Source: Actinomycetota bacterium (GTDB lineage: Bacteria > Actinomycetota > Acidimicrobiia > Acidimicrobiales > Ilumatobacteraceae). From it: a DNA stretch of 64,000 nucleotides. Below the pieces are notes generated by a model that made no database searches, was not told where the DNA came from, and saw only the letters and a program-made list of their open reading frames with translations. The first letter of the stretch is position 1. Every line of letters begins with the position of its first letter. Below are positions 10,411 to 12,581 of the stretch, in pieces. Both the position numbers and the translations under genes were made by a program. The DNA lies in NCBI GenBank assembly GCA_016870775.1, contig VGAK01000006.1:22829-86828 (forward strand), given 5' to 3'.

Positions 10411-11286
10411 GTGACATCGGTGCCCAGCCCGGAGACGATCCCCGTGCGCGACGGCACCCGTCTCGCGGTGCTCCGCTGGTCCGAGCCCAGCGCCGATGGT
10501 GTCCCCGTTGTTCTCGTCCACGGATTGGCATCGAACGCGCGCCTCTGGGACGGTGCGGCCCGCTCGCTCAGCGAGTGCGGCCACGGGGTCATTGCCGTGG
10601 ACCTGCGCGGCCACGGTCAGAGCGACAAGCCCGACCACGGATACTCGGTCGGCGACGTCGCCGATGACGTCGCCGACGTCCTGGTTGTCCTCGCGCGCGA
10701 GGGTTGGACGCGTCCGCTCGTGTGCGGACAGTCGTGGGGCGGGAACGTCGTGGTCGAACTCGCGGCGCGCCACGGCGCGGCGGTGCGCGGAGTCGTCGCA
10801 GTCGACGGCGGCACGATCGAGTTGTCCCGGATGTTTCCGAGGTGGGAGGACTGCGAATCCGCACTCGCCCCGCCGCGACTCGAGGGCATGCCATTCGAGC
10901 GTCTGCGCTCGTTGATCGCCGCCTCGCACCCGGATTGGTCCGAGGAGGCCGTCGACGGACAGATGCACAACATGGAGCGGCTCGACGACGGCACGATCCG
11001 ACCATGGCTCCTTCGTCGCCGCCACATGACGATCCTGCGCAGCTTGTGGGAGCACTCGCCGGCGTCGTTGTGGGCGTCGATCGAGGTTCCCGTGCTGTTC
11101 ACGACCGCGATTGGCGACGACGCACAGTCGCGCGCCAAGCGCGAACAGATCGCCGATGCGCTCGCGGCGCTCGGGCGGGCCGATGTCGCATGGTTCGAGG
11201 GTGCCGACCACGACCTCCACGCCCAGTACCCGCGGCGCTTCGCGGACGTGGTCGACGCACAGGTGCGCACGGGGATCTTCGCGTGA
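10411..11286 (+). CDS. Alpha/beta-fold hydrolase
   Basis: Cytoplasmic alpha/beta hydrolase of 291 residues. The oxyanion region is VLVHGLASN, the nucleophile elbow GQSWGG, and a late ADHDLH supplies the catalytic histidine. GTG 10411 is chosen because it is the first in-frame start after a CATACT-like hexamer; GTG 10420 is an alternative. Its TGA overlaps the next gene's GTG by four bases (GTGA), so the two are coupled. Specific ester or haloalkane substrate unknown. Confidence 0.85.
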   Translation: MTSVPSPETIPVRDGTRLAVLRWSEPSADGVPVVLVHGLASNARLWDGAARSLSECGHGVIAVDLRGHGQSDKPDHGYSVGDVADDVADVLVVLAREGWTRPLVCGQSWGGNVVVELAARHGAAVRGVVAVDGGTIELSRMFPRWEDCESALAPPRLEGMPFERLRSLIAASHPDWSEEAVDGQMHNMERLDDGTIRPWLLRRRHMTILRSLWEHSPASLWASIEVPVLFTTAIGDDAQSRAKREQIADALAALGRADVAWFEGADHDLHAQYPRRFADVVDAQVRTGIFA

Positions 11287-12581
11287 GCCTCCCCCGTGTG
11301 CTCACCATCATGGGTTCGGGCGAGACCTCGCCGACCATGGTCTCTATCCACCGTCGTCTTGTCGCGCGCCTCCCTGAACCTGTGCGGGCGATCGTGCTCG
11401 ACACCCCCTACGGATTCCAGGAGAACGCACCCGAGCTCGCCGCCCGGGCGGTCGACTACTTCCGCACCTCGGTCAACATCGAGATCGCGATCGCAGGTCT
11501 CCTGCGCCTCCACGACACGCACCTGCCCGCCGATCCGCTCACTGTCGAGCGCGGACTGCGTGCGGTCGAGGAATCGGGATATGTCTTCTCAGGCCCCGGC
11601 TCGCCCACCTATGCCCTGCGCCAGTGGGCGGGCACGCCCGTTCGGGACATCATCTCGGACAAGTTGCGCACGGGCGGGATCGTCACGTTCGCGTCGGCGG
11701 CCGCCCTCACGCTCGGCCGCGTCACCGTGCCGGTGTACGAGATCTACAAGGTGGGCGCCGATGTCGCCCGTCTCGACGGACTCGACATCCTCGGTGCGCT
11801 CGGGATCGACGCCGCGGTGATCCCGCACTGGGACAACGCCGAGGGTGGGCACCACGACACGCGGTTCTGCTATCTGGGCGCCACCCGCCTGGCGATCTTC
11901 GAGTCGATTCTCGACGACACGACGTGGGTGCTCGGCGTCGACGAGCACACGGCGCTCGTCATCGACATCGACGCGGGCGAGGCGTCCGTGGCGGGCAACG
12001 GCACCGTCACGGTCAAGTGCCGTGACCACACCCGGGTGTTCCCCTCGGGAGAGTCGATGACACTGGACTATCTCAGGGACCCCTGGACGAGTGACGCCAA
12101 GGGGGCGTCGACCGGGCGCACCCCGGGATCGGGCGCCGTCGGGTCTGTGATGGTCGAGACCGGGACGGTCGAGGCCGGCTCACGGGCGGGGCTGGGCGCC
12201 GAGGCCGACCGTGCACGCGCAGAGTTCGACGCCGCGATCGCGGCGCGCGACTCGGCCGGCGCCCTGCGCGCATGCCTGGCGCTCGAGCAGGCACTCCACG
12301 ACTGGTCGGGCGACACCACCCAGAGCGACGACCGCGACCGGGCGCGCAGTGCACTGCGTTCCATGATCACCGCGCTCGGCAACGCGGCCGCCGGGGGCGT
12401 GCGCGACCCGCGCGAGGTGGTCGGGCCGTTCGTGGAATCGATGCTCGAGGTGCGCCGCATCGTGCGCGCCGAGAAGCGCTACGACCTCTCCGATGTAATC
12501 CGCGATGCGTTCACCGCGCTCGGAGTCGAGGTCCGCGACACCGCCGGGGGCGTCGAATGGGAGCTCCGCGCGCCGGAGTGA
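11283..12581 (+). CDS. S51/type-1 glutamine-amidotransferase-like protein with CysRS-like C-terminal domain
   Basis: Unusual 432-residue protein. Residues ~1-260 resemble the peptidase S51/cyanophycinase class: an N-terminal LTIMGSGE strand, SGPGSPTYAL in place of the usual GGDQ loop, and FASAAALTLG where the nucleophile elbow GxSAGA normally lies, so Ser is present but the flanking glycines are lost. After a glycine/threonine linker (~270-300), residues ~305-432 resemble the C-terminal DALR/anticodon region of actinobacterial cysteinyl-tRNA synthetases: a VVGPFVESMLEVR helix followed by DLSDVIRDAFTALGVEVRDT. No synthetase catalytic core is present. GTG 11283 overlaps the previous stop. Function unknown. 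Confidence 0.7.
   Translation: MSLPRVLTIMGSGETSPTMVSIHRRLVARLPEPVRAIVLDTPYGFQENAPELAARAVDYFRTSVNIEIAIAGLLRLHDTHLPADPLTVERGLRAVEESGYVFSGPGSPTYALRQWAGTPVRDIISDKLRTGGIVTFASAAALTLGRVTVPVYEIYKVGADVARLDGLDILGALGIDAAVIPHWDNAEGGHHDTRFCYLGATRLAIFESILDDTTWVLGVDEHTALVIDIDAGEASVAGNGTVTVKCRDHTRVFPSGESMTLDYLRDPWTSDAKGASTGRTPGSGAVGSVMVETGTVEAGSRAGLGAEADRARAEFDAAIAARDSAGALRACLALEQALHDWSGDTTQSDDRDRARSALRSMITALGNAAAGGVRDPREVVGPFVESMLEVRRIVRAEKRYDLSDVIRDAFTALGVEVRDTAGGVEWELRAPE

Follow-up and report, generated by a model that had tools for sequence, protein, structure and literature searches.

An S51-like hydrolase domain joined to the anticodon-binding region of cysteinyl-tRNA synthetase in Actinomycetota: a candidate tRNA-Cys-guided hydrolase

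Stand-alone trans-editing factors of the YbaK/ProXp type hydrolyze wrong aminoacyl-tRNA in trans. In the prevailing view, cysteinyl-tRNA synthetase (CysRS) does not require editing; we know of no trans-editing factor for tRNA-Cys, nor of a YbaK/ProXp-type factor for this tRNA with a peptidase S51 domain. Among S51 peptidases, PepE has the catalytic triad Ser120, His157, and Glu192, and MccG cleaves isoaspartyl-nucleotide inhibitors of AspRS, which mimic an aminoacyl-nucleotide; most MccG homologues are encoded by stand-alone genes (PMC9239234). The CysRS residues reported to contact G34 of tRNA-Cys are R423, R427, W432, and D436 (PMC12684709). Here we describe an actinobacterial protein that joins an S51-like domain to the CysRS anticodon-binding domain (CysS_C). 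Both domains are individually known; an open-access literature search found no paper on the S51-CysS_C architecture, and annotated homologues carry the label "hypothetical protein."

The fusion is encoded in the window, the whole 64,000-nucleotide stretch of DNA that was analyzed, by an open reading frame at 11283-12581 (+) with a GTG start and a product of 432 aa, in the frame given by the initial annotation. The GTG overlaps the stop codon of an upstream alpha/beta hydrolase gene by 4 nt (GTGA). The AlphaFold2 model of the protein has a pLDDT of 82. Taken alone, the window protein scores under the Pfam and NCBIfam cut-offs, those of the CysRS models included, except that for CysS_C it falls on either side of the cut-off depending on the method; single-sequence annotation would therefore be likely to miss both domains. 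The features are as follows.

10411-11286, + strand: alpha/beta hydrolase (Abhydrolase_6), conserved operon partner with a 4-nt overlap with the fusion gene
11283-12581, + strand: S51-CysS_C fusion gene, 432 aa, GTG start; both halves in 152/153 relatives
11283-12077, + strand: S51/cyanophycinase-like hydrolase domain, residues 1-265 (6nqc profile, 2.2e-11; Foldseek, 2.4e-13; hhalign to PepE, 5.4e-6)
11694-11696, + strand: Ser138 codon, predicted nucleophile in FASAAA (PepE Ser120 equivalent, 153/153)
11826-11828, + strand: His182 codon, predicted triad His (PepE His157 equivalent, 153/153)
11853-11873, + strand: family-specific HDTRFCY loop past the triad His, residues 191-197 (D192, T193, and C196 invariant)
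11943-11945, + strand: Glu221 codon, predicted triad acid in VDEHT (PepE Glu192 equivalent, 153/153)
12078-12191, + strand: low-confidence linker, residues 266-303 (pLDDT < 50 at 273-301)
12192-12410, + strand: DALR-like helical bundle, residues 304-376 (profile alignment to CysRS; eroded in f4, L106, and L107)
12432-12563, + strand: CysS_C anticodon-binding domain, residues 384-427 (PF23493; residue mapping)

The N-terminal half had been likened to S51/cyanophycinase, and this assignment was borne out by profile and structure searches. A family profile built from 29 relatives (A1) matched the full length of the cyanophycinase-like exopeptidase 6nqc with an E value of 4.7e-6, and one of two wider profiles (A3; the other is A4) did so with 2.2e-11. 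At E <= 0.001, a Foldseek search with the fusion model returned solely S51 structures, namely, 6nqc (2.4e-13), 3en0, 6a4r, and 1fy2, which include CphB and PepE. PF03575 was matched at E <= 1 by 20 of the 29 family members (best, 5.5e-6), the window protein itself being without a match, and the cyanophycinase model TIGR02069 gave the window protein 18.6 bits against a curated cut-off of 126.6. The label "GAT-like" was not upheld, since the matches are to peptidase S51 and not to amidotransferases. When aligned to PepE with hhalign (E of 5.4e-6; PepE sequence checked against 1fy2), Ser138, His182, and Glu221 pair with Ser120, His157, and Glu192, and all three are invariant in 153 of 153 relatives. 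On this alignment, the triad positions of peptidase S51 are predicted to be intact in the fusion family.

The nucleophile elbow is unusual. In the model, a strand (residues 132-137) leads through FASAAA (136-141) into a helix (138-143). Compared to the usual GxSAGA or GxSxGA, the serine is kept and the flanking glycines are replaced, and the protein therefore belongs to a divergent S51-like branch rather than being a standard S51 member. The initial annotation had called this elbow degenerate. Its departure from GxSAGA stands, but Ser138 is invariant and the triad positions are kept; a dead-enzyme reading of ASAAA is weakened by the Ser/His/Glu invariance and is not supported. Additional invariant residues of this half (Y152, E153, Y155, K156, D192, T193, C196, and R202) mark, at the sequence level, a distinct S51 branch. 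Thus, the fusion resembles 6nqc, CphB, PepE, and MccG in fold, element order, and Ser-His-Glu positions but differs from S51 proteins in the FASAAA elbow, in the motifs MGSGET, DTPYGFQEN, PVYEIYK, and HDTRFCYLG, and in the CysRS tail. It also differs from MccG (S51 clade V), which has Asp as the third triad residue, whereas Glu221 aligns with Glu192 of PepE.

The C-terminal half (residues 304 to 428) shares homology with the final ~125 residues of CysRS, comprising a DALR-like bundle and CysS_C. This agrees with the earlier proposal of a CysRS-like C terminus without the synthetase core; the profile searches assigned the C terminus to CysRS and not to an unrelated helical domain. The window protein matched CysRS 8qhp in phmmer with an E value of 1.5e-4, and the profiles matched CysRS residues about 360 to 486 of 490 with 1.8e-9 (A1) and 1.5e-11 (A4). 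PF23493 (CysS_C) matched 29/29 members at E <= 1, several of them above the cut-off of 23; the window protein scored 18.6 to 23.4 bits depending on the method (E of 0.0021). Modeled separately with genome-derived sequences only, plasmid-collection sequences being left out, the C-terminal half has a pLDDT of 89, and its sole Foldseek match that was strong by probability was E. coli CysRS:tRNACys 1u0b (prob 0.99, but an E of only 0.017). The likeness to the CysRS C-terminal region (DALR_2 plus CysS_C, 8qhp/1u0b) includes the anticodon contacts and a C-terminal beta hairpin with an invariant Trp. Unlike CysRS, the fusion is joined to a hydrolase and has no class I catalytic core, the match being confined to the last ~125 residues. 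The window genome has a separate cysS.

Alignment to 1li5/1u0b mapped R391, R395, Y400, D404, R407, D419, and W426 to E. coli CysRS R423, R427, W432, D436, R439, D451, and W458. Five columns of the A4 C-half alignment are invariant (R391, R395, D404, R407, and D419), and W426 is likewise invariant in the larger set, giving six invariant residues. At the G34-contacting positions, Arg 423 and Arg 427 are each found in 152/152 proteins, an aromatic residue (F/Y/W) at 432 in 151/152, and Asp 436 in 152/152. The DALR scaffold positions are far more variable than these contact residues, and in the f4 lineages most of the DALR-like bundle is gone but the CysS_C residues remain (A4/A5, model m14e9c2c08711). 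In families f4 and f2 (L101, L107, and L109 to L112), the S51-to-CysS_C spacing is 54 to 79 residues versus ~115, with eroded DALR-like helices and a retained CysS_C.

In f1, the family to which the window belongs, true CysRS has diverged at R423, D451, and W458 but retains R427, the aromatic residue at 432, D436, and R439, and this core therefore marks a working tRNA-Cys reader. All 30 sampled f1 genomes have L, T, and V/L/I at these three positions, where other CysRS have R, D, and W (L264 / L084:1492-2853, - strand; L238 to L267). We rejected an origin of the tail by recent duplication from the host CysRS, as L423/T451/V458 of f1 CysRS stand against R/D/W in the fusion. CysS_C has also been recruited into other nonsynthetase proteins, with different partner domains. 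It lies N-terminal to a GT2-type glycosyltransferase in proteins of ~305 to 330 aa that keep the anticodon-contact residues (L119 to L126, e.g., L119:1739-2659, + strand; f21, f24, and f27), and it is C-terminal, without the W432 and D436 equivalents, in a YqeB-type PH-domain membrane protein (L118:2233-3222, - strand; L227 to L231). In the YqeB proteins of five Streptomyces genomes, the CysS_C fold is kept and the W432 aromatic and D436 are lost. Together with the f1 CysRS pattern, this loss argues that the invariance of the anticodon residues in the fusion exceeds fold maintenance, although the GT2-fused CysS_C calls for caution. These residues lend weight to the tRNA-Cys recognition module suggested earlier.

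The linkage of the two halves is conserved. A GTDB genome scan confirmed 261 relatives, and the best 80 of the 261, which were kept, all align across essentially the whole protein. Among the 153 proteins that bear the family motifs, 152 have the CysS_C tail, which disposes of the concern that the halves might never be linked in homologues; the exception (L200) is severed by a contig end. The 153 relatives, from across Actinomycetota, form 46 clusters at 60% identity. The S51 half was found at E <= 1e-5 in 32 of 397 Actinomycetota genomes, in the window's order and in families f15, f23, f38, f45, and f52, five of the weakest matches being distant or tail-less S51 proteins. An order-level survey found it in 65/148, and in Streptomyces the count was 6/101. 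Full-length homologues also occur on Streptomyces plasmids (megaplasmids) and in Nonomuraea. More distant S51 proteins (L114 to L117) are without the tail. A contig-end fragment in f15, outside the set of 153 (L113:3419-3874, - strand), has no tail in any frame, and Ser replaces the invariant C196.

Within f1, 22 of 41 genomes have the fusion gene, and the carriers' genomes are smaller (median of 2.05 versus 3.8 Mb; Mann-Whitney p of 1.3e-4, with no correction for relatedness). The gene is therefore accessory, yet retained in streamlined genomes. Two Streptomyces genomes have broken copies, one split between frames (L236) and one truncated (L237), and the gene is therefore dispensable in those two. 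A viral origin was rejected, as no relative was confirmed among viral contigs and there was no viral structure match at E <= 0.001. A 122-aa phage protein annotated as a CysRS anticodon-binding domain (BFVD A0A6J5SUU1) matches the tail over 47 columns with an rmsd of 1.5.

Of 81 close loci, 75 have the alpha/beta hydrolase gene directly upstream of the fusion gene; at the order level, it is there in 23 of 40, part of these loci ending at contig edges. The alpha/beta hydrolase gene adjoins the fusion gene in f3, f23, and f52 as well. A convergent ZnuABC lies downstream, but only in close relatives. The neighboring genes are metabolic, and no pathway emerged from the analysis of these neighbors (conserved alpha/beta hydrolase and convergent ZnuABC). 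Neither an adjoining translation quality-control gene nor a nearby mcc-like cluster was found. On two Streptomyces plasmids (L183 and L185), the gene is near DUF4331, TPR, "nickel transporter," and class F sortase genes.

A role close to mycothiol synthesis had also been suggested. Like MshC, the fusion is CysRS related and outside translation, but it has only the CysRS tail, whereas MshC-like proteins keep the CysRS-like catalytic core. Alongside cysS, the window genome carries an MshC-like gene (G000:C3). In f23, the fusion carriers G024, G216, and G227 match the MshC model TIGR03447 just once and at CysRS level; the mshC-rich families f37 (Mycobacterium-like) and f32 are largely without the fusion, as are most Streptomyces, where mshC is present. 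Since there are carriers without mshC and many mshC genomes without the fusion gene, the phylogenetic profile does not support a mycothiol link, which was rejected.

We tentatively propose that the fusion is a serine hydrolase guided to tRNA-Cys, where it would act on an acyl group carried by the tRNA, most likely aminoacyl or peptidyl; this whole chain is quite possible, though short of probable. Its parts are firmer: hydrolase activity is very likely, and the fusion probably binds tRNA-Cys. The C-terminal CysS_C would dock on the GCA anticodon in the manner of CysRS, and the DALR-like bundle and flexible linker would allow the S51 domain to reach the tRNA 3' end. Ser138-His182-Glu221 would then attack the carbonyl of the group esterified to tRNA-Cys, candidate targets being mis-acylated, oxidized, or peptidylated cysteine. 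The product would be free tRNA-Cys, and the enzyme would be a trans-acting deacylase or quality-control enzyme, working like the YbaK/ProXp-type factors with an unrelated fold. A speculative substrate is cysteine-sulfinyl-tRNA-Cys, proposed because sulfinated cysteine mimics the aspartate preferred by known S51 enzymes. Since the S51 serine attacks a carbonyl beside an Asp-like residue and MccG provides a precedent, the substrate range could plausibly extend to an aminoacyl- or peptidyl-tRNA ester.

The proposed tRNA-Cys-guided hydrolase is consistent with linkage in 152/153 relatives and 46 clusters, with the operon shared with the alpha/beta hydrolase, with anticodon contacts that are invariant here while YqeB has lost W432 and D436, with the retention of CysS_C residues in f4 lineages that lose the DALR bundle, and with an invariant, PepE-aligned Ser/His/Glu set in a family whose member MccG acts on aminoacyl-nucleotides. 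Against it, the contact residues could be partly structural, and the GT2-fused CysS_C keeps them too; the FASAAA elbow is without the usual glycines, so that catalysis is a prediction; the anticodon and CCA end are far apart; S51 enzymes are known for amide bonds and not tRNA esters; and no translation quality-control gene adjoins. An alternative is an ordinary small-peptide hydrolase of the S51 Asp/isoAsp type, in which CysS_C is a re-used fold for dimerization, stability, or general nucleic-acid contact rather than for reading tRNA-Cys. Free peptides are the substrates of known S51 enzymes, the neighboring genes are metabolic, and CysS_C is mobile, standing at the N terminus of GT2 enzymes but at the C terminus of YqeB membrane proteins. 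We nevertheless consider this reading rather unlikely: base contacts, including the G34-stacking aromatic residue (151/152) and D436, are kept, whereas YqeB shows that the fold can persist without them, and the DALR scaffold is far more variable than the contact residues.

The MccG precedent on AspRS inhibitors, the patchy distribution, and the homologues on Streptomyces megaplasmids would also fit immunity or detoxification, with an MccG-like enzyme held near tRNA-Cys or CysRS by its CysS_C tail and directed at a cysteinyl-nucleotide or similar CysRS-directed inhibitor. This is improbable, as the triad acid is Glu221 whereas the MccG clade typically has Asp, no mcc-like cluster is nearby, and an anticodon reader would be superfluous for a nucleotide hydrolase. 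The altered FASAAA elbow could instead point to a noncatalytic tRNA-Cys sensor or decoy, with the S51 fold serving as a pseudoenzyme that binds a ligand and the tail detecting free tRNA-Cys; together with the alpha/beta hydrolase, such a protein might regulate the use of cysteine. S51 clade II does include proteins without peptidase activity (PMC9239234). However, none of the 153 relatives departs from Ser138, His182, or Glu221, a constancy that would be uncommon in a dead enzyme, and we regard this as the least likely explanation.

The finding of a widespread, strongly conserved predicted hydrolase with exactly the residues that read the tRNA-Cys anticodon raises the question of whether charged tRNA-Cys is policed or used outside translation in actinobacteria. 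A more specific and somewhat doubtful version of the tRNA-Cys-guided hydrolase is a deacylase or peptidyl-tRNA hydrolase specific for tRNA-Cys that would proofread the decoding of cysteine, e.g., by removing oxidized cysteine, and that would be the first S51 enzyme on tRNA. If the proposal is true, the fusion would be the first hydrolase known to be guided by the anticodon-binding domain of CysRS, S51 peptidases would extend to RNA-bound substrates, and CysS_C would be a portable tRNA-Cys tag, occurring elsewhere as well, as in the GT2 enzymes.
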